Program-made: the position numbers and the translations under genes | The notes under the pieces: generated by a model | Seen by the model: only the letters and a program-made list of their open reading frames with translations | What the model was told of the DNA's origin: nothing | The model's database searches: none | NCBI GenBank assembly: GCA_946548895.1 | Contig: CAMNQF010000001.1 | Span: forward strand, 141,024-205,023 | DNA from: an uncultured bacterium | GTDB taxonomy: Bacteria > Bacillota > Clostridia > Oscillospirales > Oscillospiraceae | Reading direction: 5' to 3' | DNA: 64,000 nucleotides | Shown here: piece by piece, positions 3,571 to 59,600 of the stretch | Numbering within the stretch: position 1 is the stretch's first letter | Layout of the letters: every line of letters starts with the position of its first letter

Positions 3571-3763
3571 GATGGCCCGCATCTCCCTGCCGCTGCTTTG
3601 TAGTCTTTGTATGCTGGCGTCAGCCTTTTTATTATATCGGTTCTTGGCTGCCATGTCAACCTGGACCGTTCCATTCCCAAAATAAAGCAGGGCGGCGGGC
3701 CGCTGGTTTCCCCCCCGATTTGGAAAGAGCCGCCGGCCGGACGCGGCGGCCCAAGGCGCGGCT

Positions 3764-4912: not shown

Positions 4913-5388
4913 GGCGCGTCCTCCTCCGGCTCCAGCAGGTGGGACATGGCGTAGCCATACACCGCCTGATAGGCCGACAGCGCCCGTTTCTTTGCCTGCT
5001 CCAGGGTCTTATGGGCATAGACGAAGCGGCCGAAATCGTTGACGCCCAGCGCCGGGGAGCTGGGGCCGGCGGATTCTCTTGACGGCTCCGGGTACGCGAT
5101 GGGGACGTTGCTGCCGCTATAACACCGCTCATAGAGGATGTACCGGTCAATTCCCTGGTTTGGGCAGGCCGCGCAATCCTCATTTTCCGGGTACTGGAAC
5201 ACAATGGTGTACTTCCGGGCGTATTCACCGTTGGGCCCCTGGATGACGCAGTACCAGCCCTCCTGGCCGCACTGGAGCATATTGTTCGGGTAATAGGGCT
5301 TCCACTCCAGGTCCTCCAGCCACAGCGCGTACGCCCGCTCCACGCCCCGGCGGATCCGCTTCTGCTCCACGCGCTTATCCTGATCCAT
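4909..5388 (-). CDS. Conserved hypothetical protein (159 aa) in the MoxR/VWA operon
   Basis: Open frame overlapping the VWA gene by 4 nt; aromatic/Cys-rich with a CAAC motif; no family recognised. Confidence 0.7.
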   Translation of the reverse strand: MDQDKRVEQKRIRRGVERAYALWLEDLEWKPYYPNNMLQCGQEGWYCVIQGPNGEYARKYTIVFQYPENEDCAACPNQGIDRYILYERCYSGSNVPIAYPEPSRESAGPSSPALGVNDFGRFVYAHKTLEQAKKRALSAYQAVYGYAMSHLLEPEEDAP

Positions 5389-5400
5389 ACGCTTACCTCC

Positions 5401-8750: not shown

Positions 8751-8765
8751 GTCAAATTCCTCCCT

Positions 8766-30396: not shown

Positions 30397-30622
30397 GCCG
30401 GCGGTTTCCGGCCTCCCGCCGGGCCAGCCTGCAGGCAGAGGACCGCTGAAAAAGCCCTTGCGCTATGCCAGCTTTTGCGCTACAATAGAACCGCGAAAAC
30501 AGGGCGCCCCGGCCGCTCGCGCAATGGCATGACCCCATCCCGGGCCCATTGGGGGGATGCCGCCTTCCTGTCCGCCGGCCTTTCCGATGTGCCCGCCGAA
30601 CGCTGAGGAGGAGAAATGCGCC

Positions 30623-31988
30623 GTGGAATTAGACCTGACACAGCGGCAGGGACAAACGCTCTCCCCCAGATGATACAATCCGCGGCAGTGCTCCAGATGG
30701 CCGCCCAGGAGCTTGGGGAGTACTTGGAGACGGTCCTCCAGGAGAACCCCGTTTTGGAACTGGAGGAATCCTTCAGCCCTCCCGACGCGGGGGACGACCT
30801 GCGGCGGAAATTGGAGTGGCTGGAGTCCAATGACCCGCAAAACAGGGAATATCATTGGCAGGACGCTCAGGCCGACGCGGATCCCCTGCGCAATTGCGGC
30901 GCCACGGGACGCGAACAGGAGAGCCTCTACCACTATCTGCGGCTTCAGCTGGAAGCGATGCGGCTGGACAGGCGCACAGCGGAATGCGCGCGGCTGCTGG
31001 CGGCCAGCCTGAATCAAAACGGCTGGCTGGATGAGGAACTCTCCGCGCTGGCCCTGGAAACGGGGCAGCCTGTCAGCGCCATAGAGCGGGCGTTAGAAGT
31101 GGTTCAGTCGCTGGACCCTGCCGGGGTGGCAGCGAGAAATCTGACAGAATGCCTGCGCCTCCAATTGGTCCGGCAGCGGCCAATCAACGAATTGGCGGTA
31201 CGGATTGCCGAGGGGTACTTGGACGCGCTTGCCAAAAACAGGTACGGCCTTATCGCGTGCTCGTTAGGGGTAGCGCGGGATGAGGCGTTCGCCGCCTGTG
31301 AATTAATCCGAAGCCTGAACCCCCGCCCCTGCGCTGATTTCACCGCCGGCAGGGGCCCCGCCTACATAACCCCCGATATCATTGTGTCGGGGGACGCCGG
31401 CCATTTTGAGCTGGCATATAACGACCGGCTTTTCCCGACCCTGAACATCAGTTCCTACTATACGAAATTGCTGCGAGAAAGTGACGACGAACAGGTGAGG
31501 GACTATCTCGCCGGCAAGCTTCGTCAGGCAAAGTGGACAATTCGCGCAGTAGATCAGCGGAAAACGACCCTTACCGTATGTGTGCAGTGCATCTTGGAGG
31601 CGCAGGAGGACTTTTTCCGCCTGGGGGAAGGCCATTTAAAGCCTTTGTCGCTGGCGGACATAGCGCGGCGGGTCGGCCTCCATGAATCGACTGTGAGCCG
31701 CGCGGTAAGCGGGAAGTACCTGCAATGCCCACGGGGGACGTACCCCTTGAGCTATTTCTTTTCCAGGCGTCTGGGCCCGGACGAGGGGGGGGGGAAAGCA
31801 TTTCCGCTGACGGCGCAAAGTCCCTGCTGAAGGAGCTGATTGAGGGCGGGGACCGGCGCAAGCCCTTATCCGACCAGAAGCTGTGCGAGCGCATGGCTGC
31901 CAAGGGCTGTGTGCTTTCGCGCCGGACAGTGGCGAAATATCGGGATGAATTGGGGATACCTGGGACCGGCGGCAGAAAACGCGGCTGA
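30623..31988 (+). pseudogene. rpoN: RNA polymerase sigma-54 factor RpoN, reading frame broken twice (frameshifted gene)
   Basis: N-terminus V(M)ELDLTQRQGQTLSP starts at GTG 30623, frame lost at the C5 tract (30663-30667); main body 30616-31830 frame (MIQSAAVLQMAAQELGEYLETVLQENPVLELEE ... LADIARRVGLHESTVSRAVSGKYLQCPRGTYPLSYFF); C-terminus with RpoN box SRRTVAKYRDELGIP only in the next frame after the G10 tract (31785-31794). Confidence 0.88.
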
Positions 31989-32301: not shown

Positions 32302-34959
32302 ATGGAACAGTACGATCATGTACGGAATATCAGCAGAAGCCTGGGCTATGATCGGTTGCTGCCCCTGCAGGAAAAGGCATTTCGAATGCCGGAACTCTAC
32401 GACCCGAGTAAAAACATCTTTGTTACGGGAAACACTTCCAGCGGCAAAACGCTGATTCCGCTTCTCCACTACATTCTCGAGCGGGAGAAAAATCCTGCGT
32501 ACAAAATGCTGTTTCTTGTGCCATACCGGGCGCTGGCCGCGCAAAAGAAGCTGGAGATTGAGGAACTCCTGCGCAAAAAATTTTCGGAACTGAGTGTTTG
32601 CGTCTCAACGGGCGAACTGCGGGACGACGACAGGGACGTCAGAACAGGACTTGCGGATGTCGCGATTGTTATTTATGAAAAGGCGTATCATTTTGCCTGC
32701 TGCATACCAGATTTCTTGAAGCGCTATCACACCGTTGTTTATGACGAATTCGCGTTAAGCGAGGATGAGCAGCGCGGTGTGGCCTGTGACCTGATGCTGC
32801 TCCAGGGTATGAGTTCGTCCTGCAGGCTATTTGTCCTCTCCACCCCGCACTACAGCTGGGGCGAATATATCCACGGCGGGAATTTTACTCCCGTACAGGT
32901 TCTGGAACATGAGAGCCGGTCCGTGGTTCCCCGGGAGGAAATCCCTATTTTCCTGGATCGGTGCGCCAAGGGCAGCAAGGCGGCCGAGTTTCACGATTAC
33001 AATAAGCGCCCGCTGGGCATGGAAAAGGTTCGGGAACGCGGCTCAAAGAATGATTTGATCGAAGACCTCTGCGCGATGCATCTGGAGCGGGGACATCGGA
33101 TCTTGGTGTTCATGAACAATTGCCAGGAGGTGCGCCGGATGGCCAACGAGCTTGGACGGCGCCTGCAGGAGAAAAAGCCCGAGCTGCTTCATCCGCTGGG
33201 GCCGGACGAAGATGAGGATTGGTGTTTTCGCAATGTTTTGGATGAGACCGGCCTTTTGGAGGAGGACCTCCTCGGATTGATGAATCCACAGGAATGCGTC
33301 TTGTTCCGGCAGGGGATTGCGTATCACAACAGTTGGCTGAGGTATGAGCTCCGCACGCTGGTGGAAAAAGAATTGCTGACCGACAAGGGCTGCCTGAATG
33401 TCGTGTTCTCAACGGAGACAATGGCCTATGGAATTAACAGCAGCGTGGATGTCGTCATCGTGGCGGATATGTACAAAAACATATGGGAGTACAGGTCCTG
33501 CCGCAGGCCGGACAAAAATGGCCGTATGAAGGCCCGCACGATCAATCGGGAGTACACCGCGTTCTTAAAGGTAAACGAGTATCAGAACTATATTGGCCGC
33601 GCCGGACGGTATGGCCGCACGCAAAAAGGATACGCCTACGCGTTAATGACGCAGACTCCGGGCAAATCTGACATTCGGAGCTCATGGGACAAACTGATGA
33701 AGCAGCGCGACGACCCTCCCCGCGCGAGGAGCACGCTGCTGAAGCTGGACGCCTACTGCAATAGGGAATGCGAGCGCAAGGATCATTGCGCGGGCAGCAG
33801 CTGCCAGAAGTGCAGCCTCTATGCCAATGAATTCGCCATGCCGGTCCTGAGTTTAATCCCCCCGGAGGGAATCACCTTCCGGCAGATCAGGGAGCGCCTC
33901 CTGTGGCTGCCCGGCATAGATAAAAATATGTCTTGGCTGGACAGAAACATTGAAAACGCGCTGCGGCGCTTGGTGTACCGAACGGGGCCCGCCCGCTGGG
34001 TGAGGGCAAAAAAAAATACGGGACCGATATATTCCAGGCGGTATTATCTCACCAAGGCGGGACAGGCTGTCTGCGGTATGCTGACCACCATGTATGAATG
34101 TGACTGCCTGAGAAAGTACCTGTCTGGACAGCAGGCAGAGGCCTCGGACAAGATGGAACCGCGGAATCTTCTCCGCCTGATGACGCTTGATCCCTTCGAC
34201 CTGTTTTATGAACTGTGCGTGTTGCCGGAGCTCCAAAAAATTGCGGAGGATTTTTTTGGCATCAACGACTCCAGTTCCAGCGAGGGACGCAAGTGGCTTT
34301 CCGTTTACAACGACCTTTGCACCAGAAAGCTTTCGGCATATTATAACACGCGCAAAAAATGTATCTCGCTAAAGCTGTACGAACGGTTGACCATTCCGTC
34401 GGGGAACAGGCACGTGTACCGCATCACAAATCCCTTTGACACGTACCGGCTGCTGCTTGCCATTACGATCTACGAGTGGTACCGCACCGCGTCGATCCGT
34501 GAGCTCGATAGGGATTTGAACTCAGTGCCGGGAACAGTGGTCATCACGACGGGCCGAATCTCTCACCTGACGCAGCAAACTTCCTTTTATTTGCAAATCC
34601 TTGCCGCAATGTGTGATACCATGCTGGATCCAGCCTATGAGGAGATCAAAGCCCTTTTGCTTCGGATGGAGCTTTGCCTCTACTTTGGAATCCGGGAAAG
34701 CAACGCGACGGTGATTCCCGTGGAAGAACTGCGCCAGCTTACACGGCGGCAGCAATCGGCCGTCTCCAGGATTATGGAATTTTGCTCAAATTCCCCGCCG
34801 GCGCCAATACGCGAGGAACTGACCAAGCGGCAAATTCGGGACTGGAAGCAGCTGCTTCACACGATGAGCGATCTTCCGGCAGATGGCACGGCGGCCGTTC
34901 TTTTGAAAAAGAAGTATCCGATCCTGGTTGAAGCAGAACAAGAATTTAAGAAACCGTAA
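32302..34959 (+). CDS. Ski2-like superfamily 2 DEAD/DEAH helicase with Cys cluster (first gene of two-helicase operon)
   Basis: NIFVTGNTSSGKTLIPLL (motif I), VVYDEFALSEDE (motif II), VVFSTETMAYGIN, NYIGRAGRYGRTQKG (motif VI); Cys cluster CNRECERKDHCAGSSCQKC; ATG 32302 with GGGAGG RBS. Confidence 0.85.
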   Translation: MEQYDHVRNISRSLGYDRLLPLQEKAFRMPELYDPSKNIFVTGNTSSGKTLIPLLHYILEREKNPAYKMLFLVPYRALAAQKKLEIEELLRKKFSELSVCVSTGELRDDDRDVRTGLADVAIVIYEKAYHFACCIPDFLKRYHTVVYDEFALSEDEQRGVACDLMLLQGMSSSCRLFVLSTPHYSWGEYIHGGNFTPVQVLEHESRSVVPREEIPIFLDRCAKGSKAAEFHDYNKRPLGMEKVRERGSKNDLIEDLCAMHLERGHRILVFMNNCQEVRRMANELGRRLQEKKPELLHPLGPDEDEDWCFRNVLDETGLLEEDLLGLMNPQECVLFRQGIAYHNSWLRYELRTLVEKELLTDKGCLNVVFSTETMAYGINSSVDVVIVADMYKNIWEYRSCRRPDKNGRMKARTINREYTAFLKVNEYQNYIGRAGRYGRTQKGYAYALMTQTPGKSDIRSSWDKLMKQRDDPPRARSTLLKLDAYCNRECERKDHCAGSSCQKCSLYANEFAMPVLSLIPPEGITFRQIRERLLWLPGIDKNMSWLDRNIENALRRLVYRTGPARWVRAKKNTGPIYSRRYYLTKAGQAVCGMLTTMYECDCLRKYLSGQQAEASDKMEPRNLLRLMTLDPFDLFYELCVLPELQKIAEDFFGINDSSSSEGRKWLSVYNDLCTRKLSAYYNTRKKCISLKLYERLTIPSGNRHVYRITNPFDTYRLLLAITIYEWYRTASIRELDRDLNSVPGTVVITTGRISHLTQQTSFYLQILAAMCDTMLDPAYEEIKALLLRMELCLYFGIRESNATVIPVEELRQLTRRQQSAVSRIMEFCSNSPPAPIREELTKRQIRDWKQLLHTMSDLPADGTAAVLLKKKYPILVEAEQEFKKP

Positions 34960-34974
34960 GGGAAAGGGGCTATT

Positions 34975-37900
34975 ATGACATTACGCGAACGCTTGGAAGA
35001 GCATAAGCTCAACGGCGAGACATTTGCCGCCGGCCGTGAGACACATAACAATTGGGACGGGCAACTGACCGCGATGCAGGACGCGGTGCTGGCGGACGAG
35101 CATTTTTGGGACACGGCGAAGAACCTGATTATCCAGGGCGCCACCTCCAGCGGAAAAACGCTCCTTGCGGAGATCGCGGCTTACCGTCAGATCACGGATG
35201 AGAAAATCTGGCGCAAGAAAGTCATTTTTTTGGTTCCCCTGCGCGCGCTTGTCACCGCGCAGTGCAATCAAATCAAGCGCGATTTTCAGAACGTCACGCT
35301 CAATGGGAAACATCTCGAAATTTTTGAGTCTTCCGCGGACTATCAGGACCACGACGCGCAGATCATGATGGGCGATTATGACATCGCGGTAATCGTCTAT
35401 GAAAAGTTTTTCGCCCTGTTGAGCAGTGGGCAGAGCCGGGAAAACAATATGCTGAAAAACTGCGGGCTCGTTATCGTCGACGAATTGCAGATGCTCTCCA
35501 CAAAAGACCGCGGCCCTAAAATGGAGTTTTCCATTATGCGCCTGCTGGAAATGCACCGGGTCAAGGAAGAGGGAGACGAGGAGCCGGAGGAAAATATCCG
35601 CATTATTGGCCTGACGACGTCGGAGAGCGGCGTGGAGGACCTCGGCGCCTGGATGAAGGCCAATATAGTCGGGAACGCGATTCGCCCTGTCCCCCTGCGG
35701 CAGTACATCGTGTCCTATGACACGGGCAAAATGATGTATAAAGACATTGCCGGAGAGGGAGACCCCGCAAAACCCGATGACGCGAATGGGAACCCCGACA
35801 AGGTTGAGGAGATTTCATTGCTGGCCAAGTTTGATTCCGGCAATTGCGATAAGGACAAGAAACAACGCTGCCTGTACTCTCTTCTGGCAACCTGGCTGGA
35901 GCCGAACAAGGAAAAGAAAATCCTGATTTTTACGAACGCCAAGTGGAACACGCGGGAAATCGCCAATGGAATTGTCCGAAAATTCCCGCAGTTTGAGCCG
36001 CCGGCCGCGGAAAATGCCGAGAGGCGGGCGGAGCTGAGGGAACAGTTCCACAGGGTTCTGGTGGAATTCAGCGACGAGGATGGCGTAAACGACCTGGAAA
36101 GGCTTATCTCAAAGGGAGTGGCGTTCCATCACTCCGGCCTTCCCGCGATAGTGCGTACCATGATTGAGGATGATTTTCGCGACGAGAACGGGCATATTCA
36201 AATCGTCGTATGCACGGAAACCCTGATGGTTGGAATGAATCTTCCCGCCGACATCGTCATTCTGTATGACGGCACGACGTACCGCGGGGGCAAAATCCCA
36301 GTGCCGCTTTCCGTGCAATCGTATAACAATTTTGTGGGGCGCGCCGGGCGCCTGGGGATGAATAGCGCCCCCAATTACCGCGGCAAGAGCTATCTCCTGA
36401 CGGAAAACCTGGAGCGCGATTACAGCCGGTATACCGCCGACAGGAAGACTGCCGTCAAGTCGTCTTTCCGTTCCGGCAGCCCGGAGGTGCTGGCGCCGTA
36501 TTTTCTCAACTGGATCGGCAAAGAGCATACGGTGGAGGAGCGGATTCAGAGCGGCCTGCGCATCAACTTCTGCTACCACAAAGAAATATGGGACGAAGCA
36601 GTTATCAAAAAAGACGCCGAAGCGATTTTGGACCAGCTGAAAAACGCCGTTCCCACCCCCCAAAAGCGGCTGATTATAAAACGGAAAAATGGGAGCCATA
36701 TTTTGTCGAATTTGGGGAACGCGCTGGCGCCTTATGCGCTTAACCTTGACACCTGCAAAATCCTGATCGAGTATATGCTCCAAAAACCCATTTCTGAATC
36801 AGATATTTGGTTCTTAGCCCCGGACGACGAGTCCAGCGTCTGCCCGCCAAAGCCGCTGATTGAATTGATTTTGACAATCTGCTCCTGCGAGGAAGTGGAT
36901 AAAAGCCCGGCAATCAGCGTTTTTGGAAATGAGAGCGAGGTCAAGGCGCTGAACCGGTCGCTTCAGGACTATTTGAAGCAAATCTATCCCAAGCGGCAGG
37001 ATGAGGAGCCCCAGGAGGACGAATGGGACTGCGAGGACGAGGACGCCTGTAAAAAGCTTACGCGGATAGCGTACAGCAGCTATATTGCCGAGCCGGAGGA
37101 ATTGCGCCAGGTTGTCCGCACCCTGATTCTATGCCTCTGGCTGGCAGGATACCGCGTGAGAAAAATCAAGGAGATCCTCCGGCTGAACAGCGCGGCATTT
37201 TCGACCAGCGATATCGAGAGAATCTCCGAGGCCGCCGCCTACCTGGTGGAAGCCGCGAGCAAATGCCAGGACATCCTGCTTGACTCCAAAGACGCCCCGG
37301 CTTTGTACCGGCTGTCCATTCGAATGAAGTACGGCATCCCGCATGAGCTGCACTGCCTGGCCAATACCCATGTGCGCGGGATCACGCGCAATCAGCTGCT
37401 AACCATTTGGCGTAAGGCCCAGCAGGTGCACAAAACGCCGCGGGATTACATCATGGCAAGCTTTAATCCGCATCATCAAGCATTGCGGAAAGCGCTGCAG
37501 GCCCGCGAAAGGGTTAACAACTACTACCAGCAGATTGAGAATATTCAAGAAGAGGACCAGTCCCATATCTGCAAGGAACTCTCCTCCCATCTGCAGAATA
37601 TGGATATGCACTCCGGCGCCGGGGCGCGAGGGTGCCGGGATGCGATACACAGCATTCTGACCGCCGTTTCCGAAAGGCAGGAGAACGGCTGGTCAATTAT
37701 ACCTGCGCAGAATGAGTTGGAATTTACTTTTATGACAGAGAACCAACGCTCTTACTGCCTGCGCTTTGGATTGTTTGACATGGGCGAAAATAGCGATGAA
37801 TGGTTCACGCAAATTAGAGACTTTGATTGCCAGCCCACCCGGGACCGCAACCAACATCAAGTAAACATAGCGGTCCTGTATGGCGCGCCGCCGGCGGGAG

Positions 37901-38907
37901 AGGAGCGCCTCCCGCCAAACCTGCTGGTGATCTCCAGCGAGCTGCTCGGCGTTTTGCTGGCAAAATGCGTGCGCGACAGCGCGGGGGCCGATCCGGTAAA
38001 GCTGATTTACCGCATACTGTCCGACTTGCAAGGCAGCTTCATCTTGAATGGCGCCTCGTTCTTCCGGGCATATGGCCCTATCTCCGACCTCATCAAGGGA
38101 TATTTGCATACCGAACCAGACAAAACAAAGCCAGGGCTGCTGTATTACAGCGGCGTAGCCGATCCTGGAGCCGGTTCGCCCTGCGCGGTTGTCCCCTGGG
38201 GGGATATCGGCGAAGAAGAGAAGAAATTGTTCAAGCCAATCATTGCTTTTTACCACCCGGCTCTCCTTTTCAGCAAGACGGCCAAAGCGCTGCTGCAGGA
38301 GTGCGGCACCATCCTTTGTTCGGAGGACGACTATGAAACCGTCGAAAAAGATTACGGCAGCAAGGAAATCACAGTCATAAAAAACAGCGACATCAATGAT
38401 GCGTTAGAGGTTGTTGTCAAAACGATTCATCAGCCCGCGCACGTTAATTATGAATTTGATTTTGGGATTTCACTGCGCGGGCGCTATCTGGATAAAATGA
38501 ACCTGCTGAAGGGGGAGCTGGAAAAGTGCGGCAAGCGGGTTCTCCTGATGGAAAAGGATGACTTCCCGCAGCGCATAGCTGGAAGCGGTCTCATTGAAGC
38601 GCTCCATAGAGAATTTTCCCGCTGCCGCCATATCGTGATCTGCGATACGATTGACTACGATCAGAGCCCGTACACCGCGATGGTCGAGTTGAATGTTGTC
38701 ATGGATAAAATCTTTTCGGCGCTGAACACAGGCTGCCGCTATCCGATTTACCGGGTGAGGATGCCGGATGTGGAGCCAAGCCATGTTTTGAAGTGCCTGT
38801 TCCGCGACGATGACGACACCTATTCTGACGGCGACGTCCATGGGCTGGCGCAGCGTCTTGTTGATAAAAGCGAGGCGGTCGACAAGAGCAACCAATCCAC
38901 CCCTTGA
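34975..38907 (+). CDS. Ski2-like superfamily 2 helicase with C-terminal TIR-like domain (second gene of two-helicase operon)
   Basis: NLIIQGATSSGKTLLAEIAAYR, GLVIVDELQML, VVCTETLMVGMNLPADIVILYDG, NFVGRAGRLGMNS; C-terminal YEFDFGISLRGRYLDKMNLLKGELEKCGKRVLLMEKDDFPQRIAGSGLIEALHREFSRCRHIVICDTIDYDQSPYTAMVEL resembles bacterial TIR domains. Confidence 0.85.
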   Translation: MTLRERLEEHKLNGETFAAGRETHNNWDGQLTAMQDAVLADEHFWDTAKNLIIQGATSSGKTLLAEIAAYRQITDEKIWRKKVIFLVPLRALVTAQCNQIKRDFQNVTLNGKHLEIFESSADYQDHDAQIMMGDYDIAVIVYEKFFALLSSGQSRENNMLKNCGLVIVDELQMLSTKDRGPKMEFSIMRLLEMHRVKEEGDEEPEENIRIIGLTTSESGVEDLGAWMKANIVGNAIRPVPLRQYIVSYDTGKMMYKDIAGEGDPAKPDDANGNPDKVEEISLLAKFDSGNCDKDKKQRCLYSLLATWLEPNKEKKILIFTNAKWNTREIANGIVRKFPQFEPPAAENAERRAELREQFHRVLVEFSDEDGVNDLERLISKGVAFHHSGLPAIVRTMIEDDFRDENGHIQIVVCTETLMVGMNLPADIVILYDGTTYRGGKIPVPLSVQSYNNFVGRAGRLGMNSAPNYRGKSYLLTENLERDYSRYTADRKTAVKSSFRSGSPEVLAPYFLNWIGKEHTVEERIQSGLRINFCYHKEIWDEAVIKKDAEAILDQLKNAVPTPQKRLIIKRKNGSHILSNLGNALAPYALNLDTCKILIEYMLQKPISESDIWFLAPDDESSVCPPKPLIELILTICSCEEVDKSPAISVFGNESEVKALNRSLQDYLKQIYPKRQDEEPQEDEWDCEDEDACKKLTRIAYSSYIAEPEELRQVVRTLILCLWLAGYRVRKIKEILRLNSAAFSTSDIERISEAAAYLVEAASKCQDILLDSKDAPALYRLSIRMKYGIPHELHCLANTHVRGITRNQLLTIWRKAQQVHKTPRDYIMASFNPHHQALRKALQARERVNNYYQQIENIQEEDQSHICKELSSHLQNMDMHSGAGARGCRDAIHSILTAVSERQENGWSIIPAQNELEFTFMTENQRSYCLRFGLFDMGENSDEWFTQIRDFDCQPTRDRNQHQVNIAVLYGAPPAGEERLPPNLLVISSELLGVLLAKCVRDSAGADPVKLIYRILSDLQGSFILNGASFFRAYGPISDLIKGYLHTEPDKTKPGLLYYSGVADPGAGSPCAVVPWGDIGEEEKKLFKPIIAFYHPALLFSKTAKALLQECGTILCSEDDYETVEKDYGSKEITVIKNSDINDALEVVVKTIHQPAHVNYEFDFGISLRGRYLDKMNLLKGELEKCGKRVLLMEKDDFPQRIAGSGLIEALHREFSRCRHIVICDTIDYDQSPYTAMVELNVVMDKIFSALNTGCRYPIYRVRMPDVEPSHVLKCLFRDDDDTYSDGDVHGLAQRLVDKSEAVDKSNQSTP

Positions 38908-41627: not shown

Positions 41628-42668
41628 ATGTCCAGTCAGGAAGCGGCTTTTATCGTTGACGCGGTTGAAAAGAAGCATTCACTCCTTTTCAGCCTATGCA
41701 GCGCATCAGCGCCCCATAGGCCGCAAATCGGCCGCGCGCCGGACAACATAGACAGTGTGCGGGCGTTGCCCGGCAGCGGCACCGCCGCTGTTCGAAAACC
41801 GATAAGACCGACTTTCCAGTGCGCTGACGGCACAATCCATGCCGGCCATATCGCCCAATATGCGGCACACCTCCAGGAAGAGGAGCGGGCAAAAAACACC
41901 ATAAAGAAATATGTCCATGATCTTCACGGCCTAATGGCGTTTTTGAGCGGACAGCCAATCACAAAAGGGGCTGTGATTGCGTGGAAAGAACACTTGGCGG
42001 AAATCTATGCCCCGGCCACTGTCAATTCCATGCTGGCGGCGGCCAATGGCTTTTTCCGTTTTATGGACTGGCCGAAGCTGTCTGTCAGGCCGCTGAAGAT
42101 ACAGCGCCCCCTTTTCTGCGACGAAAGCCGGGAAATGACCCGCGCTGAATATGTACGTTTGGTGGATGAGGCCCGGCGGCAGGGAAATGAGCGGCTGGCC
42201 CTGCTGCTTCAGACGGTATGCGCCACCGGCATCCGGGTGTCGGAACTTCGGTTTATCACTGTGGAAGCGGTGAACCTGGGCCGGACGGCGGTCAGCAACA
42301 AGGGGAAGCGGCGAACTGTCTTTCTGCCGGGGAAGCTGTGCGGGCTGCTGAAAAAATACCTGAAAAAGCAAAAAATCACCGATGGATCGGTGTTTGTGAC
42401 GCGGACGGGAAAGCCCTTGGACCGCTCCAATATTTGGCGTGACATGAAAGCCTTGTGTGAGCGCGCCGGGGTGGAGCCGGGCAAGGTGTTCCCCCACAAC
42501 CTGCGGCACCTGTTTGCCCGGACGTATTACGCGCTGGAAAAGGATTTGTCCCGGCTGGCGGATATTTTGGGCCATTCCAACATCAGTACCACCCGTATTT
42601 ATACCGCGGAGAGCGGTTCTGTTCACGCTCGGCAAATGGAGCGGCTGGGGCTGATCCTTACAACTTAA
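41628..42668 (+). CDS. Tyrosine recombinase (XerC/D-like integrase family)
   Basis: SAM-like N-terminal domain; catalytic ATGIRVSELR, SNKGKRRTVFLP, PHNLRHLFA, LGHSNISTTRIY. Confidence 0.93.
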   Translation: MSSQEAAFIVDAVEKKHSLLFSLCSASAPHRPQIGRAPDNIDSVRALPGSGTAAVRKPIRPTFQCADGTIHAGHIAQYAAHLQEEERAKNTIKKYVHDLHGLMAFLSGQPITKGAVIAWKEHLAEIYAPATVNSMLAAANGFFRFMDWPKLSVRPLKIQRPLFCDESREMTRAEYVRLVDEARRQGNERLALLLQTVCATGIRVSELRFITVEAVNLGRTAVSNKGKRRTVFLPGKLCGLLKKYLKKQKITDGSVFVTRTGKPLDRSNIWRDMKALCERAGVEPGKVFPHNLRHLFARTYYALEKDLSRLADILGHSNISTTRIYTAESGSVHARQMERLGLILTT

Positions 42669-49147: not shown

Positions 49148-52100
49148 TCAGGTGTTTTCAATGAAGTTCTTCAGCATTTGCGCCGCTTCGGCACGGGTCG
49201 CAGTCCCTCCGGGGGTAAGCTGGCCGCTGCCATTGCCGTTCAAAATTCCGTTCTCCACGGCCCAGCACAGCGCCTCCTGGGCGTAGCTGCTGATCTGGTC
49301 CGCGTCCGTGAAGGCCGCCAGATCGCGGCCATTCGCCTTGGGGCTTCCCACGTACCGCCAGAGCATCACCACAAACTGCTCCCGCGTCACGCTGTCGTTG
49401 GGGCCGAACTGGCCGTCCCCATAGCCGTTTACGATGCCGTTCTCCGCGGCCCAGGCGACGCTGTCCGCATACCAGGCATCACCGCTGACATCGTGATACA
49501 CATCTGTCAGCGCCTGGTCCGGCTGGCCCTCCAGCCGGTACAGCACGGTGGCCACCATTGCGCGGCTTGTGGTCTGGTCTGGGCTGAACGTCGTTTCGCT
49601 GGTACCGTTGAACAGTTCGCGGGCGCTGGCGAAAGTCACAGCCTCAGCCGCCCAGCTTGTGGACGGCACGTCGGAAAACGTCTTGCTGTTGTCCACGATC
49701 TCTACCGTGGCGGAGCCGTTCAGCGGAGCGTTCAGCTTGCCGTCTTTTACCACGCTGCGCTGGAGGACCTCGCGGGTGCCGTCGTCATTGACCAGCACCG
49801 CCACGGTGCCGGGGCCGGCGTCCTCCGCCGGGACGGTGAGCGTCACGCCGCCAGGTACGTCCGCCACGGTTTCGCCCCCCGCCGTCAGGGTCAGCGCCAC
49901 CGCGCCGTCCACCTGCTCGGTGACTACGTTCACCGTGCCGCCCGCGCGGCTCAGGGTGTTCAGCGCCTCATGGGGGATGGTCGCGTCGGCGACAGGGGTG
50001 GAGACGGTGAGCGCCGCGTTCGTCTGGCTCTGGATCTGGCTCACTGTGGAGGCCGGGATGGACACCTGGGTTTTGGTCACGTCGCTGGTGATTTCCGGCT
50101 TGATGACAATTGTCTCGCTCTGGTTCCTGACCGCCTCCCTCACCAGCTGATTTCCGTCCGAGGCGCTCAGGACAGTGTTTGCCGTGCCGTTCTGGATGGT
50201 CGTCCGCGTCGGGGTGCCGTTTGTCTCCGCGGGCGGCGTGCTGTCTGTGGCTGTGCCGCCGCCGCCGCTTCCGCTTCCGCCGCCGGTGCCGCCGCCGCTG
50301 GCAGCGGAGACCGCCGCGACCTGAATCGTGACTGTGTTGTAGTTGGCGGCATCCTGCGGCGTGAAGACCACGTCATACGATTTCCCGGCTTCGGCCGTAA
50401 TGCCGCCATCCGCCCAGGCGAAGGCTCCCGGCACATCTGTGGCGCCGCCGTTCAGCTTAATTTCACTCAGCGGCTGTCCCGCGGCGCCGGACGCCGTGGG
50501 CGCCGTATTGACGCTCGGGTTTGCCTTTGCGATCTGTACTGTAATCTCCGCGGCGGCGATGCCGGTGTAATTCACGCTGTCCGCCACCCTGTACCAGACG
50601 GTGTACGTGCCAGCGGCGGTGCCGGTGGGGATTTGATCGGAATACGCGCCGTTCTGGCTCGTGCTGTACTCGATTGTGCCGATACCGCCAACCGTGCTGC
50701 CGCCGGTGACAAGGGCTTGCGCGCCGCCGGTGTACGTCAGGCCGGGGTCCGCCGGCTTGGCGTCCAGCTTCGCGTCCACCTTGTAAATGGCCGCCGTCGC
50801 GCTGTCGGGCCAGGTGATGAGGTAATTTCCATTTTTGCCGTCCGGGTTTTTGGACGTGATGGTTACCTGCTTGTTTGTACCGGCATCGGCCGTCGCAAAT
50901 TGGCCGTCCACCGTGAGCGGGATCGTATCCGTACCCACCAGGTCGCCGCTCTTCCAAACGGCGCTCAGTGTCGCGGCGGTGGTTCCGTCATAGGGCTTAT
51001 CCTGGGCTGTCACCACCGGGGTCACGGGCTTCGGGTTCGCGACGAAGGGTACGCTGGCCGTGTTGGATTTGCCGTAGCCGTCCGCCCCCTCCTTGTACGC
51101 CTCCACGGTGAATCCGCCTGTGCCCGTTACGGTCACGACGCCATTTTGGTCGATGGAAGCAATGCCGCTCTCCGCAACGCTCCACCGAATCGCGCCGCCG
51201 CCGGAGCCGCCCATGGCGCTCAGGCGGAAGGTATCGCCGTAGTGGACGTCAGTTGGAATGCTGGTGACGATGCTCAGGGGGTTCTGGCTGGCCGCCACGA
51301 TCTCAAAGGTCCCGGTGACGGGGGGATCGAACTGGTAGTTGCCGCCTGGGTTGTCCTTGACGGTAACGGTGTACGTGCCCACCGCGATCCGGGGCGCGGG
51401 CAGCTCCACGGTATATTCGCCCTCCGGGATAATGCGGTTTGCGCCGTCCCGGACCACGACGGCGGGGGTCTTTTCCGTGCCGTCATACGGGAAGGTGTTC
51501 TGCGTGCACAGGACGGTGGGCGTATCCGTGTTCACGGAAATGGTCACATTCTCCACCTTCGCGGGGGCGCTGTCCTTGTGGTTCTCGTCCCCGGCGACCA
51601 CCTTGTACCATACGGTGTAGCTGCCGGCGTCCACAGCGGTGGGCAGGCTGTAGCTGTAGCTGCCGCCATCCAGAGAATAGGCCAGCTCTCCGCCCTCCGC
51701 CGTGCCGGGGGTGACCAGGGTCAACGGACTGCCGTTGTAAGTCAGAGGACCTGTGGCCGCCTTCGGCGCTTCTGTCACACTTGCAGCCTTCGGGGTGATG
51801 GACGCCTTAGTCGTAGAGGGCCAACCGCTGACGTCGTATTTTTCCTTGACGCCGTCGGAAACCGTCAGGCCGGTAATGATAACCGTCTTGTTTTCCCCGG
51901 CATCAGCGTCCATGAAATGCCCCGCTGCGGTGACGCCGTCGGCGGGAATGACGTCGCCGGCGACCAGACCGCTGAGGGTGACGGTCAACGCGGCGTCTGT
52001 GCCGCCGTCATAGGGCTTATTCGCCGCCGTTACAACTGCGGTGACCGGCTTCGGGTTGACGTAGAAGGTCCACGTGTCGCTGACGCCGCTTTCAGCGGCC

Positions 52101-55100
52101 GTGACGGTGACGCTGCCCGACTTCTTGGCCGTCACCACGCCGCTGCCGTCGATGGCGGCGACGTCCGGGTCACTGCTGCTCCACGCCACCGCGCCGCTGC
52201 CGGAGCCGCCGGCGGCGCCCAGACGGATGGTATCGCCATAGTAGACGGTGTCCCGCTTGCCGGTGATGGTCAGGGCGGGCAGGTCCGCGCCGGTAATTTG
52301 GAAGTGGGCCGTCGCTGTAAAGCTGTAGTTCCCTCCTTTGCTGGTGATGATAACGGTGGCCTCGCCCACCGCTACGTTGTCGCTGTAGGCCACCGTGTAC
52401 TCGCTGGCCGGGATCACATTGCCGCTCTTGTTGTCGGTCACGGTGACGGTGGGCTTGTGTTCGCCGCCGGTGTAGCTGAAGCTGCCGGAGGACAACGTGA
52501 CGGTCAGGTCGTCCGCGCTCAGGGTATTCGTTATGATCTCCGCGGGGATTGCAATGACGTCGCTGTCCTCGTGCTTGGAGTCGCCCTGTACCTTGGCCAA
52601 AACAGTGTACTTGCCCACATCCGCCTTGGTGGGGATCGTGGCGAAATACGACACGCCGTCCAGGGAATAGAACGGAATCCCGCCCGTGGCCGTGCCCGCG
52701 TTGACCAGCTCCTGGGCCGTGCCGTTGTAGGTCAGCCCCGTTTTCGCCGTGGGGGGCGTGGTAAATTTTGCCTGAGGCTTTACGATCTCAAAGGTCGCTT
52801 GGGTGCTGAACTGGTAGTTGCTGTTGTCCTTGTTCCAAATCAGAACAGTCGCGGTACCCACGTTGGTGTTATTGCTGTAAAACACGTTTACGTCAGATGT
52901 CATAAACGTTTTACCCTCTATGGATACCCATACATCGGGCTTTATTGCTCCACCGGTATACACAGCTGGATTCTCCGCCAAGAGCAATGTAACTGTTGGG
53001 GTGACCAGCTTCTTCTGGATCGTCACATACACCACCCGCGGGGCGGTGTCGGCGGCCCCGTTCTCACCCTTGACCTTGTAGTAGACGGAATAGCTGCCCG
53101 CGTTGACGCCCATGGGGATCGTGGGGGCAAAATCAGCGGCGTCCCCCGTCAGGGAATACTCCACGTGGCCATTGACCGCGGCGCCGTCCGTCACAAGCTC
53201 CTGGGGATTTCCGTTGTAGGTCAGGTTCTTCGCCTGCGGCGCGACGGTTATGGCGGCGGCCCCCGCCTTGATGGTAAAGGTCCTGCTGCCGCTGACGGTG
53301 TAGTTGCCGCCGGGGTTGTCGCTGATGATGACGGTGGCGTTGGTTCCCACCTCTACGTTGTTGCTGTAGCTCACCGTGTACTCGCTGGCCGGAATCACGG
53401 TGGAGCCGTCCTTGACCACCGCGTCGGGCTTCTTCGGCGTGCCGTCGTAGTCAAAGGCCTCGCGGGACAGCTCAATTGTGGGGTTGGTCACCGATTTCGG
53501 CTTGATGGTCACATCCACCCTGACCGCGGGGCTGTCCTTGTAATTCCCGCTGGCCTGGGCCTTGTACCAGATGGTGTACGTACCCGCGTTGGCCGCCTTG
53601 GGGACGCTCAACGTGAAATAGCTGCCGTCCCGGGAGTACGCCAGGGTCCCGTTGGCCGCCGTGACGCCGCCGCCCACCAGGTCCTGCTCACTGCCGTTGT
53701 AGGTCAGCTCGGTGGCTGTCGAGCCCGACACGCTGGCGGCCTTCGGGGTGATGGACGCCGTGGCGGTGGCGGGGAGCTTAATGTCGTACTTGTCGCTGAG
53801 AGGGAGAACGGCGCTGGATTTGAGATGAATCGTCACCTGCTTGCTGTCTCCGGCGTCGGCGGTGTTAAACTGCCCGGCCAGCATAGAGTCAAGCGCGATG
53901 GTGTCGCCGTTCAGCAGGTCGCCGTCCTTCCAGGTGACGGCCAGCTCCGCCGCGTCGCTGCCGTCAAACTCCTTGTCCTTGGCGGTCACAATGGGGGAGA
54001 CCGGCCTCTTTTCCGCGCTGAACGACCAGCTGACCGAGACCGCGCCGTAGTTGCCGTCCGCCTCCTTTGTGGCGGTGATGGTGGCCGCGCCCGACTTCAG
54101 GACCTTGACCAGGCCGTTTTGGCCGATGGTGGCAACGGCGGTGTCGCTGCTGGCCCAGGTCACGGCCCCCGTCCCGGAGCCGCCGGTTGTGCTGAGGGTA
54201 AAGCTGTCGCCGTATCGGATTTCGCCGGGCTGGCCCACGATGGACAGCGGGTTCTGGCCCATCATGAGGATGGTGAATTCCGCGCTTTTCGCGGTGATCT
54301 CGTAGTTTCCGCCCGCCACGTCGCCGATGGTGACCATGTGCTTCACGGCAGCCGACGAGGCGGTTTTCCAGTCCGTGCCGCCGTAATTGACGGTGTACTC
54401 CTCCGCCGGGATCACGCGGTGGTTCGTGTCCTTCACCGTGACCGACGGCTTGTGGACCGCGCCGTCATACGAGGCGCTGGGGGGCGTGAACTCAATGATG
54501 GGGCCGGCCACCTCCTGCGGGGCGATGTTTACCGAATTGTCCAGCGTTTTGCCCACCGTGTCCTTGTGGTTGCCGTCGCCCTTCACCCGGTACCAGACCT
54601 CGTAATCCCCCGCGCCTGTGCCGGTGGGGAGGCTGGCGGAGTAGGTCAGGCCGTCCAGGGAGTACTCCATGGCGCCTCCCGTGGCGGAGCCCGCGTTGAC
54701 CAGCGCCTGGGGATTGCCGGTGTACGCCAGCCCGGTTTTTCCCTCGGGAGCGGTTACATCCGTTACCTCCGCCTTGAAAATGGACGCGGTGGTTATGTCG
54801 GGGTAGGTGATGAGGTAGTTCTCATGATTCCCCGTACTGCCGCTGAAGTCCGGACTGGTGCTGTCGACCATCACCTTCTTGTCCGTTCCGGCGTTGGGGT
54901 CCTCAAAGCGGCCCGCCAGCGTGATGGTGATGTTGTCGCCGCCCACCAGGTCGCCGCTCCGCAGCCTGGCGGTCACCGTAGTGGTCGCGGGGGTAACGCC
55001 GTCATAGTCTTTCGACGCCGCCGTCACAACGGCGGTCACCGGCTTCTTCTCCGCGAAGAAGGACCAGGCGGCGGTCTGGTTGGCATAGCCGTCTTTCTTG

Positions 55101-56629
55101 CTGGTGGCCGTCACCGTCACAGAGCCCACGCCCTTGATGGTGAGCAGCCCGGTATCGGCGCCGATCTCCGCAATTGCGGAACCGCCAACGCTCCACTCTA
55201 CCGTCCCGTTTCCGCCGGTGGTTCCCAGCTGGATGGTGTCGCCGTAGTAGACCCGCTCCCGGGCGCCGGTGATGGTCAGGGGCGTCTGGTCCGCCGGGGT
55301 GATGGTAAAGGTGGCGGTGTTCTTGCCGTCTGTGGTATCGAAGGTGTAATTCCCGCCGCTGACTTCGGTGATGGTCAGGGTGTACGTGCCCACGTTGAGC
55401 AGCTCGGTCACGGCGTTGCCGCTGGCGTCCTGGTATGCCGTCTTGTATTCGCTGCCGTCAATCAGCAGGCCGTTGTCGTCCCGGACGGTGACCGTGGGCG
55501 CCTGCTTCTCTCCGTTGTACGTCACCGACGGCGGCGCCACCCGGATGGTGGGAGTGTCTACGGCGTTGACGGTGATGGTGGCGGCCACCGGTTGCGGTTG
55601 GGTGTCCTCGTGGTTGCCGTCGCCCTGGACCTTGTACCAGACGGTGTAAGGGCCCACCGCCTTCCCGGTGGGGATGGCCGGAGCATACTCGCCGTTCTGG
55701 GCCAGAGAATAGACCATCGTTCCGCCGGACGCGCTGCCCGCCTCGGCCAGCGCCTGCTCGGTGTTGTTGTAAGGCAGGTTTTCCAGGCCATTGGGCGCCG
55801 TCACCACCGACGCGGCGCCCTTTGTGATTGTAAAGGTCCCCGTGCCGTTGACGATGTAGTTGCCGCCGTTGGCGTTGGTGATGATGACCTCCGCCGTGCC
55901 GGCGTTGACGTTGTTCTGGTAAGACAGGGTGTACTCGGTGCTCGGAATGGCGGTGCTGCCGTCGTTCACCTCAACCGCGCCGTCCGCCGGGATCTGCGGA
56001 TTGCCGTCATAGGTATAGCTGCCGGACACCGTGACCTTCGGGCTGACGACCTCCTTCGGCTTGATGGTCACACTGACCGAGCCCACCGTGGGATCGTCTG
56101 CATGGTTGCCGTCGCCTACCACCTTGTAGGTTACCGTATAGGTCCCTGCCGCCGTTGCTTTGGGAATATCTTTGCCATAGCCGCCGCCGTCCACCGCGTA
56201 CTCGATGTGGCCGCCCTCGGCGGTGCCTATGGTCACCAGCTCCTGCGGCTGCCCGGTGTAGGTCAGGTCCCTGGCCTGGGGGGAGCCGGTCAGCTGCGCG
56301 CCGCCCTTGCGGATCTCAAATGTGACGCTGCCGCTGACATCGTAGTTTCCGCCCTCGCCGCTGGCGATAGTGACGGTGGCCGTACCCACGTTCTTGTTGC
56401 CGCCGTAGCTCACCGCGTACTCAACCGCCGGAACCACCGCCGTGCCGTCGCTGATGGTGACGGCGGGCCGCTTCTCAGTGCCGTCAAAGGTATAGAAATA
56501 CCCCTTGGCGTCCTGCTGCAAGTCGCTGCCGGACAGCGTGACATTGGTCACGCCCGCCGTCAGCTGCTTCCGGGTGATGGCCACCTGAACCGCCTGCGGC
56601 TCGGAGTCGCGGTGGTTGGCGTCCCCCAT
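49148..56629 (-). CDS. Giant repetitive surface protein, C-terminal part with MBG/YDG/Ig-like repeats and three SLH domains
   Basis: Repeated motifs such as LTYNGxxQELV..AGTYTVWYKVxGDxNH; SLH triplet FSDVPSTSWAAEAVTFA, YHDVSGDAWYADSVAWAAENGIVNGYGDGQFGPNDSVTREQ, AFTDADQISSYAQEALCWAVENGILNG. Confidence 0.9.
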   Translation of the reverse strand: MGDANHRDSEPQAVQVAITRKQLTAGVTNVTLSGSDLQQDAKGYFYTFDGTEKRPAVTISDGTAVVPAVEYAVSYGGNKNVGTATVTIASGEGGNYDVSGSVTFEIRKGGAQLTGSPQARDLTYTGQPQELVTIGTAEGGHIEYAVDGGGYGKDIPKATAAGTYTVTYKVVGDGNHADDPTVGSVSVTIKPKEVVSPKVTVSGSYTYDGNPQIPADGAVEVNDGSTAIPSTEYTLSYQNNVNAGTAEVIITNANGGNYIVNGTGTFTITKGAASVVTAPNGLENLPYNNTEQALAEAGSASGGTMVYSLAQNGEYAPAIPTGKAVGPYTVWYKVQGDGNHEDTQPQPVAATITVNAVDTPTIRVAPPSVTYNGEKQAPTVTVRDDNGLLIDGSEYKTAYQDASGNAVTELLNVGTYTLTITEVSGGNYTFDTTDGKNTATFTITPADQTPLTITGARERVYYGDTIQLGTTGGNGTVEWSVGGSAIAEIGADTGLLTIKGVGSVTVTATSKKDGYANQTAAWSFFAEKKPVTAVVTAASKDYDGVTPATTTVTARLRSGDLVGGDNITITLAGRFEDPNAGTDKKVMVDSTSPDFSGSTGNHENYLITYPDITTASIFKAEVTDVTAPEGKTGLAYTGNPQALVNAGSATGGAMEYSLDGLTYSASLPTGTGAGDYEVWYRVKGDGNHKDTVGKTLDNSVNIAPQEVAGPIIEFTPPSASYDGAVHKPSVTVKDTNHRVIPAEEYTVNYGGTDWKTASSAAVKHMVTIGDVAGGNYEITAKSAEFTILMMGQNPLSIVGQPGEIRYGDSFTLSTTGGSGTGAVTWASSDTAVATIGQNGLVKVLKSGAATITATKEADGNYGAVSVSWSFSAEKRPVSPIVTAKDKEFDGSDAAELAVTWKDGDLLNGDTIALDSMLAGQFNTADAGDSKQVTIHLKSSAVLPLSDKYDIKLPATATASITPKAASVSGSTATELTYNGSEQDLVGGGVTAANGTLAYSRDGSYFTLSVPKAANAGTYTIWYKAQASGNYKDSPAVRVDVTIKPKSVTNPTIELSREAFDYDGTPKKPDAVVKDGSTVIPASEYTVSYSNNVEVGTNATVIISDNPGGNYTVSGSRTFTIKAGAAAITVAPQAKNLTYNGNPQELVTDGAAVNGHVEYSLTGDAADFAPTIPMGVNAGSYSVYYKVKGENGAADTAPRVVYVTIQKKLVTPTVTLLLAENPAVYTGGAIKPDVWVSIEGKTFMTSDVNVFYSNNTNVGTATVLIWNKDNSNYQFSTQATFEIVKPQAKFTTPPTAKTGLTYNGTAQELVNAGTATGGIPFYSLDGVSYFATIPTKADVGKYTVLAKVQGDSKHEDSDVIAIPAEIITNTLSADDLTVTLSSGSFSYTGGEHKPTVTVTDNKSGNVIPASEYTVAYSDNVAVGEATVIITSKGGNYSFTATAHFQITGADLPALTITGKRDTVYYGDTIRLGAAGGSGSGAVAWSSSDPDVAAIDGSGVVTAKKSGSVTVTAAESGVSDTWTFYVNPKPVTAVVTAANKPYDGGTDAALTVTLSGLVAGDVIPADGVTAAGHFMDADAGENKTVIITGLTVSDGVKEKYDVSGWPSTTKASITPKAASVTEAPKAATGPLTYNGSPLTLVTPGTAEGGELAYSLDGGSYSYSLPTAVDAGSYTVWYKVVAGDENHKDSAPAKVENVTISVNTDTPTVLCTQNTFPYDGTEKTPAVVVRDGANRIIPEGEYTVELPAPRIAVGTYTVTVKDNPGGNYQFDPPVTGTFEIVAASQNPLSIVTSIPTDVHYGDTFRLSAMGGSGGGAIRWSVAESGIASIDQNGVVTVTGTGGFTVEAYKEGADGYGKSNTASVPFVANPKPVTPVVTAQDKPYDGTTAATLSAVWKSGDLVGTDTIPLTVDGQFATADAGTNKQVTITSKNPDGKNGNYLITWPDSATAAIYKVDAKLDAKPADPGLTYTGGAQALVTGGSTVGGIGTIEYSTSQNGAYSDQIPTGTAAGTYTVWYRVADSVNYTGIAAAEITVQIAKANPSVNTAPTASGAAGQPLSEIKLNGGATDVPGAFAWADGGITAEAGKSYDVVFTPQDAANYNTVTIQVAAVSAASGGGTGGGSGSGGGGTATDSTPPAETNGTPTRTTIQNGTANTVLSASDGNQLVREAVRNQSETIVIKPEITSDVTKTQVSIPASTVSQIQSQTNAALTVSTPVADATIPHEALNTLSRAGGTVNVVTEQVDGAVALTLTAGGETVADVPGGVTLTVPAEDAGPGTVAVLVNDDGTREVLQRSVVKDGKLNAPLNGSATVEIVDNSKTFSDVPSTSWAAEAVTFASARELFNGTSETTFSPDQTTSRAMVATVLYRLEGQPDQALTDVYHDVSGDAWYADSVAWAAENGIVNGYGDGQFGPNDSVTREQFVVMLWRYVGSPKANGRDLAAFTDADQISSYAQEALCWAVENGILNGNGSGQLTPGGTATRAEAAQMLKNFIENT

Positions 56630-59600
56630 TTACTTGTACCAGACCGTGTAGGTCCCCGCGTTGGTCCCGGTGGGAACGGCCGCGGAATAGACCCCGTCCC
56701 TGGAGCTGGCGTAGAGGGTGTTTGCGTCCCCGCCGGCCACAAGGTCTTGCGTTGTGCCGTCGTACACCCGATCATTCGCGGTCAGGGCCGGCGCGGTCCC
56801 GTCCGCCTTGAAAATGGACGCGGTGGTGGTGCGCTGGATGGTGATGTCGTACTTCTGCGCGGTGGCGTCGGAGACAGGGTCGCCGGTGATGGTCACCGAC
56901 TTGCCGGCTCCCGCCTGGGCGTCGGCAAAGGCGCCCCGCAGGGCCGATGTGTCGATGCGGTCGGTCCCGGCCAGGGCCGGCTCCCATGTGACATGGATTC
57001 CGGCGTCCGTTGTGCCGTCGTACACCTTGTCGTCCGCGGTGACAATGGCCGTGACCGGCTTTTTCAGCGCGTTGAACGGATAGGTGGCCGTGGCCGTGTC
57101 ATAATTGCCGCCGCCTGTCTTGGTGGCGGTGATGGTGGCGGAACCCACGCCGACAATTGTGACAAACCCGTTGGCGTCGATTTCGGCGATGCCGGCGGGG
57201 TCGCAGGTCCACGTGACCGTGCCGCTGCCGGAGCCGCCCACCGCGCTCAGGGTAAAGGTGCCGCCGTAGTAGACCAGGCCGGGCTTGTTGACGATTTCCA
57301 GCGGGTTCTGAGGTGTTATGCTGATTTCGAACTCCGCCTCTGCCCCAGTGATCTCGTAGTTGCCGCCCGTAATATTCTGCACCTTGACCTTGTGCTTTCC
57401 AACGTCTTTCCAGTTTGTGGCGGAATCGTAGACGACGGTATACTCGCTGTCCGGGATCACGTTGTGCGCGGCGTCCCTGACCGTGACCTCGGGCCGCTTC
57501 ACGCTGCCGTCGTACTGCGCGCCGGGAGGCGTCAGCTCGATTTGCGGCGTTACGGTCTGTCTGGCAATGGCCGCGCTCACCGTCTTGGCCTCGCTGTCCG
57601 TGTGGTTGCCGTCGCCCTGGGCCTTGTAGTAGACCGTGTAGCTGCCGGCGTCCTTGGCCTTGGGGATGGAGGGCGTGAAATTGGCGCCGTCCAGGGAATA
57701 GACCATGACGCCGCCGGTCACAGCCCCCGCCGTGACCAGCTCCTGGGCCTGGCTGGCGTCGTAGGCCAGGGTGTTCGCCGCCGGTTCCCTATCCACCGTG
57801 GCCGCCGCCGCCAGGATGGACGCGGTGGCGGTGGCGGGGAAGGTAATCTCATAGTTGGCCGCTTTCGGGTCGGTAACCGCCGGGGCGGGGCCGGTTATGG
57901 TGATGGTTTTATTGGTCCCGGCGTTCTCATTGTCGAAGACGCCCGTCAGGTTCGGAATGCTGAACGTGTCCCCAAACACCAGGTCTCCTGGGGCCACCTT
58001 GGCCGTTACGGTGGCGTCCGTATTGCCGTCAAAGGGCTTGTCAACGCCAGTCAGCACAGCCGTCACCGGCTTCTTCCCCGCGGTGAACTCCCATGTGGCG
58101 GATACGTCGCTGTAATTGCCGCCCCTGGAGCGGGTCACCGTCACCGTGATGGGCGTGTTCACATCTTTCACGGTGAGCAGCCCGGTGGCGCTGATGGTGC
58201 TGTTGATCGTGCCGCCGCCGTTGGCCGCAGCGGCCCAGGTGATGGTCCCGGCGCCGGTGCCGCCCGAGACGCCCAGCTGGATGGTGTCGCCGTAGCGGAC
58301 CTGGGCCTTGGTGCCGGTGATGGAGATGGCCTCCTGGTCCGCCGCAACGATCTGAAACGTGCGGACATTGACCGTTCCATCCGCCGTCATGTCATAATTG
58401 GAGGTATCCGGCGTGGTGACCGTGACCGTGTAGGTGTCCACATCCACCATGCCAACGTTGCCGTTTGTTCCGGCAATGTCCACCTTGTATTCGTGCTCCG
58501 GGATCACCTGGCTGTGATCGTCGTAGACGGTGATGGCGGGCTTGTGCTGGCCGCCGTCGTACTTGAATGTGTCCGAGGACAGCGTGATGGTGGGCTTCGT
58601 CACCTTGTTTTTGGCGATCTCCACACTGAGGGCCGCCGGGTCCGTGTCGCTGTGGTTGGCGTCGCCCAGCACCTTCCAGTCCACGGTGTATGTGCCCACC
58701 GCGGAGGCCGCGGGAATGGCGGGGGAATAGTTTCCGCCGTTCACAGAGTAGACCACGGTGCCTTCGCCGCAGACGCCCGCTGTGACCAGCTCCTGGGACG
58801 CGCCGTTGTACTGCAAGCCGGTTTTTACCGTTGGGGCCGTAACGGAGGGGGCCGCCCTTGTGATCGTAAAGGAGGCCGTGCCGTTGACGATGTAGTTGCC
58901 GCCGTTGGCGTCGCTGACGGTGACCGTGGCGGTCCCGGCGTTCACGTTGTCCCGGTAGGACACGCTGTACTCGGGCTTGGCGGCGCCGGGACCGTCGATC
59001 ACCGTGCCGCCGTCCTGGACGGTGACAGCGGGCGTTTTCGCGGCGCCGTCATAGACATAGGAATCCTGCGCCAGCGTGATGGCGGCTGTGATCTCCTTGG
59101 GCTTGATGGTGGCGGACACCTGGCCGGGCGCGGTATCCCCATGGTTGGTGTCGCCCTTCACCATATAAAATACGGTGTATGTGCCCGCCGCTGTTTGCGT
59201 GGGAATGGACGCTTTATAGGGGCCTGCCAGCGACTCCGAATACACCACGGTGCCGCCGGTGGCCGCGCCCACCGTCACCAGCTCCTGCGCGGTTCCATCG
59301 TAGGTCAGGTCCTTGGCCTGGGGGCTGGAGGTCAGCACCGCGCCGGCTCTTCGGATGGCAAATTTCACCTCCTCGTCGGCAAAGGTATAGTTGCCCCCCG
59401 CCTTGGCCGTGACGGTCACGGTTGCCTCGCCAACATTCTTGTTGTTGGTGACGCTCGCGCTGTAGTCGCGTTCCGCCAGCACCGCGTTGTCGTCGGTCGC
59501 CGTCACCTTGACGGTGGGGGTCTTGTCGGTGCCGTCGTACTCATAGTAGTAGACGTTGGGCGTGACGGAGGTATCTGTCTTTAAGTCATTGCCGGACAGG

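Follow-up and report, generated by a model that had tools for sequence, protein, structure and literature searches.

A two-helicase operon with a C-terminal TIR domain in an uncultured Oscillospiraceae bacterium, a probable TIR-dependent defence system

The window analysed here, a stretch of 64,000 nucleotides from an uncultured, gut-type bacterium of the Oscillospiraceae (GenBank:CAMNQF010000001.1, positions 141,024 to 205,023), contained a two-gene operon on the forward strand (32302-38907), in which the gene for helicase 2-TIR starts 15 bases past the stop codon of helicase 1. The ATG at 32302 was selected as the helicase 1 start based on where the Gemmiger homologue begins to align and on an upstream GGGAGG, the reading frame being open from 32218. 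The features were as follows:

32302-34959, + strand: helicase 1, a Ski2/Hel308-type helicase of 885 aa
34975-38907, + strand: helicase 2-TIR, a Ski2/Hel308-type helicase of 1310 aa with a C-terminal TIR
35095-37464, + strand: helicase core and ratchet-like domain of helicase 2-TIR (about residues 41-830), with Walker A GATSSGKT, DELQ and GRAGRLG
37555-38145, + strand: restriction-endonuclease-like domain (about residues 861-1057), placed by alignment with the homologue L041
38146-38436, + strand: TIR/receiver-like alpha/beta domain without a clear active site (about residues 1058-1154), matched by the L041 model
38443-38886, + strand: TIR domain (about residues 1157-1304), from profile, structure model and alignment
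38686-38688, + strand: codon of Glu1238 (the Glu of MVEL), putatively catalytic, invariant in 8/8 members

Retention of Walker A, DExx and GRAGR places both helicases among the Ski2/Hel308-like SF2 proteins. Helicase 1 carried GNTSSGKT (Walker A), DEFA (motif II), GRAGRYG (motif VI) and a cysteine cluster, CNRECERKDHCAGSSCQKC, and was 24% identical to helicase 2. For helicase 2-TIR, Pfam searches detected DEAD (E 7.5e-21) and Helicase_C (1.2e-10), with Helicase_dom4_arc sub-threshold, while matches to Hel308-type models reached 1e-48 and the PDB matches of the motor were Brr2, Slh1 and Hel308. The identity of the N-terminal portion as a Ski2/Hel308-type helicase is secure.

Downstream, the operon was adjoined by mnmA, located on the opposite strand 34 bases from helicase 2-TIR, and the intervals separating the operon from the rpoN-like gene and from mnmA contained no further plausible ORF. 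The operon had a GC content of 53-54%, versus 61% on the rpoN side and 66% on the mnmA side, and a tyrosine recombinase gene (41628-42668) was situated 2.7 kb downstream. Together with the rarity described below, these features suggest that the operon was acquired, and an acquired defence cassette is in keeping with the patchy occurrence and with a GC content below that of the genes on either side; the GC content is only moderate evidence, because the genes past mnmA were also low (50-57%). The insertion was not delimited, since rpoN was within 1.5 kb of mnmA in none of 13 congeneric genomes, and no defence island was visible in the window. It was also noticed that the rpoN-like (sigma-54) gene (30616-31988, + strand) was apparently frameshifted, with its N-terminal part in ORF 30616-31830 and its C-terminal SRRTVAKYRDELGIP in another frame (31725-31988), which appears to be an assembly error or decay. 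Elsewhere in the window (49148-63919, - strand), two giant ORFs of 2429 and 2493 aa with YDG, Big_2 and SLH domains lay in the same frame, separated by a single stop (56630-56632) with an ATG directly after it; they are possibly one surface protein of about 4900 aa broken by one stop.

The first-pass annotation had read a TIR-like NADase domain at 38443-38769. The peptide that it quoted indeed begins with residue 1157 at base 38443 and ends with residue 1265 at base 38769, in ORF 34975-38907, and both position and fold held, but the domain continues to about residue 1300. Within the C-terminal 200 residues the sole Pfam match was TIR_2 (E 0.017, 16.1 bits), and as this is below the cut-off of 28 bits, the TIR claim needed independent support. 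The homologue from Gemmiger, 45% identical over the TIR, matched TIR_2 nearly full-length (E 5.2e-6) with 27.4 bits, just below the 28-bit cut-off, and Pfam failed to detect the TIR in the Lachnospiraceae and Selenomonadales members. No TIR was found when PDB sequences were searched with the TIR profile, and no match was significant when hhalign was used to compare the TIR alignments with three bona fide TIRs from other loci, both profiles being thin. Because the sequence is divergent and the profile scores are below the cut-off, the TIR assignment rests on fold and conservation.

An AF2 model of residues 851-1310 built from eight sequences (mean pLDDT 68; ten-residue blocks of the TIR ranging from 53 to 92) gave a TIR fold. 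Model residues 308-454, corresponding to 1158-1304 of the protein, matched solved TIRs with Z 11-13.2 over 113-144 aligned residues. Nearly all of the 50 structure matches listed were TIRs, the remainder being DNPH1; at the top among these were the SPARTA TIR (Z 13.2, 134 residues, 2.8 A), tied with several other TIRs, AbTir (13.0) and SARM1 (12.5). Alignment of the eight members revealed that G1164, S1166, L1178, C1217, D1224, Y1228 and E1238 were invariant, with the most distant members sharing only 14-23% identity with the window protein over the TIR, and the conservation of the putative catalytic Glu was thereby borne out. In canonical TIRs, the helix that follows strand D carries the catalytic Glu; E1238 was located in the helix after strand HIVICD (helix 382-402 of the AF2 model) and aligned with the WE glutamate found in two TIR proteins from another locus (L020). 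We infer that the pocket is active.

The unusual architecture recognised at first pass, a TIR fused directly to a Ski2-like helicase, was likewise supported; the first pass missed the conserved two-helicase operon and the two domains between helicase and TIR. These two domains were assigned from a separate model of the helicase-TIR interval of the Lachnospiraceae homologue L041 (pLDDT 77, pTM 0.81) and transferred to the window protein via alignment. The first part of the L041 middle region matched Nt.BspD6I (Z 9.8 over 162 residues), and the second part matched TIR and receiver domains (Z 8-10.7); the TIR/receiver-like region had low confidence when the window protein itself was modelled. On reading the sequence, no ExK was visible in the expected strand of the endonuclease-like domain, which is therefore probably non-catalytic. 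An early Foldseek hint of Cap4/SAVED for the middle region was rejected, as the TM was low (0.15) and the separate model matched endonuclease and TIR/receiver-like folds.

No other members were found in 60 genomes of relatives or in 391 class, 398 phylum and 400 family genomes, and one was present in a sample of 397 genomes of another family. Scans with a single protein gave no relative among viral and genome contigs, plasmid and phage collections yielded generic or caspase helicases only, and a two-helicase alignment gave poor patterns as a search source. A weak match in genome G1186 proved to be a RecD2-like helicase without TIR, and two viral matches from an ortholog alignment search were distant helicases. 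We then scanned 84,980 species genomes with an alignment (A2) of the window protein and the helicase parts of caspase-helicases. The best match was Gemmiger sp. An50 (L039; 45% over the helicase); six Bacillota contigs (L040-L044 and L050; 29-31%) came next, and caspase-helicases after them. All seven relatives share the layout of the window protein, with a homologous TIR at the end and 1313-1385 aa where complete. A helicase-1 homologue was directly upstream in each of the six relatives whose contig reached that far, and the pair was kept in contigs of Gemmiger, Oscillospiraceae, Lachnospiraceae and Selenomonadales. In a tree of helicase cores, the eight TIR-type proteins formed one group (98/95) and seven helicase-1 proteins another (100/100), and the two groups branched congruently, window and Gemmiger versus the Lachnospiraceae and Selenomonadales members.

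The nearest helicases outside the TIR clade were caspase-Ski2-like helicase fusions, homologous through the ratchet-like region. They were first found via plasmid matches, with Peptidase_C14 (E 3.5e-8 to 3.4e-19) followed by DEAD, and the N-terminal caspase was present in 71 of the 73 non-TIR loci of the 84,980-genome scan. As in the window, a death-type effector is fused to the same motor, but the caspase is N-terminal, no TIR is present and no helicase-1 partner was noted (Rhizobium, Hymenobacter, Fibrella, Streptomyces and others). This Peptidase_C14 family (L015-L020, L045-L118) was widespread on chromosomes and conjugative plasmids of Alphaproteobacteria, Bacteroidota, Actinomycetota, Cyanobacteria and others. 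A search of the open literature found no caspase-Ski2 system, and we know of no published description of such fusions.

Effector genes were located beside five of the eight TIR-type loci, downstream of the pair in three and upstream in two, so the linkage does not extend to every member. The third gene of the two Lachnospiraceae loci (L041 and L050) encodes a TM segment and ThsA_Macro (Pfam E 2.5e-39 and 8.2e-35, respectively), and matched PADLOC ThsA with E 1.6e-59 and 2e-56; TM-macro ThsA is the Thoeris effector of the TM-macro type. In L041, the beginning of this gene overlaps the end of the one for the TIR protein. The gene that comes next in L043, again with an overlap, codes for a 995-aa protein carrying a Card1-like nuclease domain (E 1.5e-10); a homologue of this protein is encoded upstream of the pair in L042 and L044, accompanied by a small RyR protein (E about 1e-34). 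The part shared by these three Selenomonadales proteins comprises a Rossmann domain, a RyR-like domain and a PD-(D/E)xK nuclease with intact EFD...ECK; the first two were read from the alignment, and for the RyR-like part L044 also gave a Pfam RyR match, though below threshold. Between the RyR-nuclease and RyR genes (L042, 2834-3661; L044, 3511-4338) was a conserved gene for a 276-aa protein of no Pfam family, whose C-terminal half is glycine/alanine-rich and hydrophobic and which may serve the Selenomonadales version as a membrane component. The ThsA third gene in two Lachnospiraceae and the Rossmann-RyR-nuclease neighbour in three Selenomonadales are new here.

In Thoeris with TM-macro ThsA, the TIR product is read by a macro domain, macro ThsA binding ADPR-type nucleotides (PMC11204291), and phage RyR-domain proteins bind or cleave 2' and 3' cADPR (PMC13232231). 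The TM-macro ThsA and the Rossmann-RyR-nuclease are predicted to be receptors of ADP-ribose-type signals. The linkage in relatives points to a TIR that makes such a signal rather than only destroying NAD+. For the window TIR the label 'NADase' is plausible, yet possibly too narrow, because related gene pairs are linked to ThsA (TM-macro) or RyR-nuclease.

A second TIR locus was noticed in the same genome (L127, G000:C10:30000-48000; 3571-8827, + strand), with three genes in a row for a 669-aa protein without Pfam match, a 542-aa TIR protein (TIR_2 E 2.5e-6, FISYSHD) and a 466-aa TM-RyR protein (RyR E 2.8e-8). It is a candidate TIR-to-RyR signalling operon, and its TM-RyR protein, encoded on another contig, is a possible receptor in trans for the window TIR.

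Compared with known systems, the operon resembles type II Thoeris in that a TIR enzyme stands beside a TM-macro ThsA in L041 and L050. However, ThsB is not a helicase, whereas in this system the TIR forms the C-terminal end of a helicase of 1310-1385 aa that is paired with a second helicase; no match was obtained between the TIR fragment and PADLOC models, including ThsB, and the window copy lacks the adjacent ThsA that these two relatives have. Like SPARTA (short prokaryotic Argonaute with TIR-APAZ), it would tie a nucleic-acid-recognising machine to a TIR of similar fold, but the recogniser in SPARTA is an Argonaute with a guide rather than a helicase pair and its TIR is N-terminal to APAZ rather than C-terminal to a helicase; no Argonaute profile was found in helicase 1 or helicase 2-TIR, the partner being a DEAD helicase. 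With Hachiman (HamA-HamB) it shares a Ski2-like helicase as the putative sensor and partial HamB profile matches, but the TIR replaces the HamA effector, and no HamA (DUF1837), nor an ORF left for one, was found near the operon. By their defining genes, the operon is not Thoeris, SPARTA or Hachiman, although it probably works like the first two. No PADLOC model was found for the TIR part or the whole system, and the open papers searched described neither this gene pair nor a fusion between a TIR and a Ski2-like helicase. Each part is already known, and we class the combination as a variant of TIR-based immunity for which no name was found.

Because the pair is kept in distant relatives, some of which have a ThsA-type receptor, it looks like an anti-phage system. 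We consider it probable (about 60%) that the operon is a two-helicase, TIR-dependent defence system working as follows. The Ski2-like helicase pair would form or load a sensor for foreign or abnormal nucleic acid, the engagement of which would release or oligomerise the C-terminal TIR of helicase 2. The TIR, whose fold and Glu1238 are described above, would then cleave NAD+ through this residue. In relatives, the product would be read by the co-encoded TM-macro ThsA or RyR-nuclease, and this receptor-effector would kill or stall the cell; in the window, the TIR may deplete NAD+ itself or signal to a receptor elsewhere in the genome. That the pair senses nucleic acid and activates a TIR that uses NAD+ is the most likely reading of the sequences. 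A more specific version, put forward tentatively and at somewhat less than even odds, is that the pair belongs to a new class of immune receptor in bacteria and acts like the RIG-I-type helicases of animals, sensing invader nucleic acid and driving the fused TIR to make an ADP-ribose-type second messenger. The receptors for it would be interchangeable (TM-macro ThsA or RyR-nuclease), and a caspase would replace the TIR in sister lineages.

No receptor gene was adjacent to the window copy, where the downstream gene is mnmA, none was recognised beside the pair of Gemmiger, its closest relative, and no ThsA_Macro or Card1-endonuclease family was found in the window's genome bin. These absences would suit a self-contained suicide NADase, in which, as in SPARTA, the helicases would sense nucleic acid and the TIR would destroy NAD+ without requiring a messenger receptor, and the best structure matches were indeed TIRs of SPARTA and SARM1, which act by NAD+ hydrolysis. 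We regard this as rather unlikely, as the same gene pair has ThsA or RyR-nuclease in relatives and a TM-RyR protein is encoded elsewhere in the same genome, and Z-score ranking among TIRs cannot separate a hydrolase from a signal synthase. Lower still stands the proposal that defence comes mainly from the helicases themselves, which would unwind or degrade the nucleic acid of the invader as in Hachiman, with the TIR serving only for oligomerisation or regulation. The partial HamB matches of the helicase cores, the many TIRs that are scaffolds and the non-catalytic appearance of the neighbouring TIR/receiver-like domain agree with it, but the invariance of E1238 over deep divergence, the linkage to receptors of TIR products and the endonuclease-like domain without a visible intact nuclease motif make it improbable. 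A role in host DNA repair or RNA processing, in which Hel308 and Ski2 relatives do act, is very improbable given the very patchy occurrence, the TIR or caspase effectors on the helicases and the ThsA linkage.

If the TIR-dependent defence reading is true, a nucleic-acid-sensing helicase would join the known triggers of bacterial TIR immune signalling, paralleling the helicase receptors of animal immunity. With ThsA and RyR-nuclease effectors tied to one TIR module, what bacterial RyR domains sense would become directly testable.
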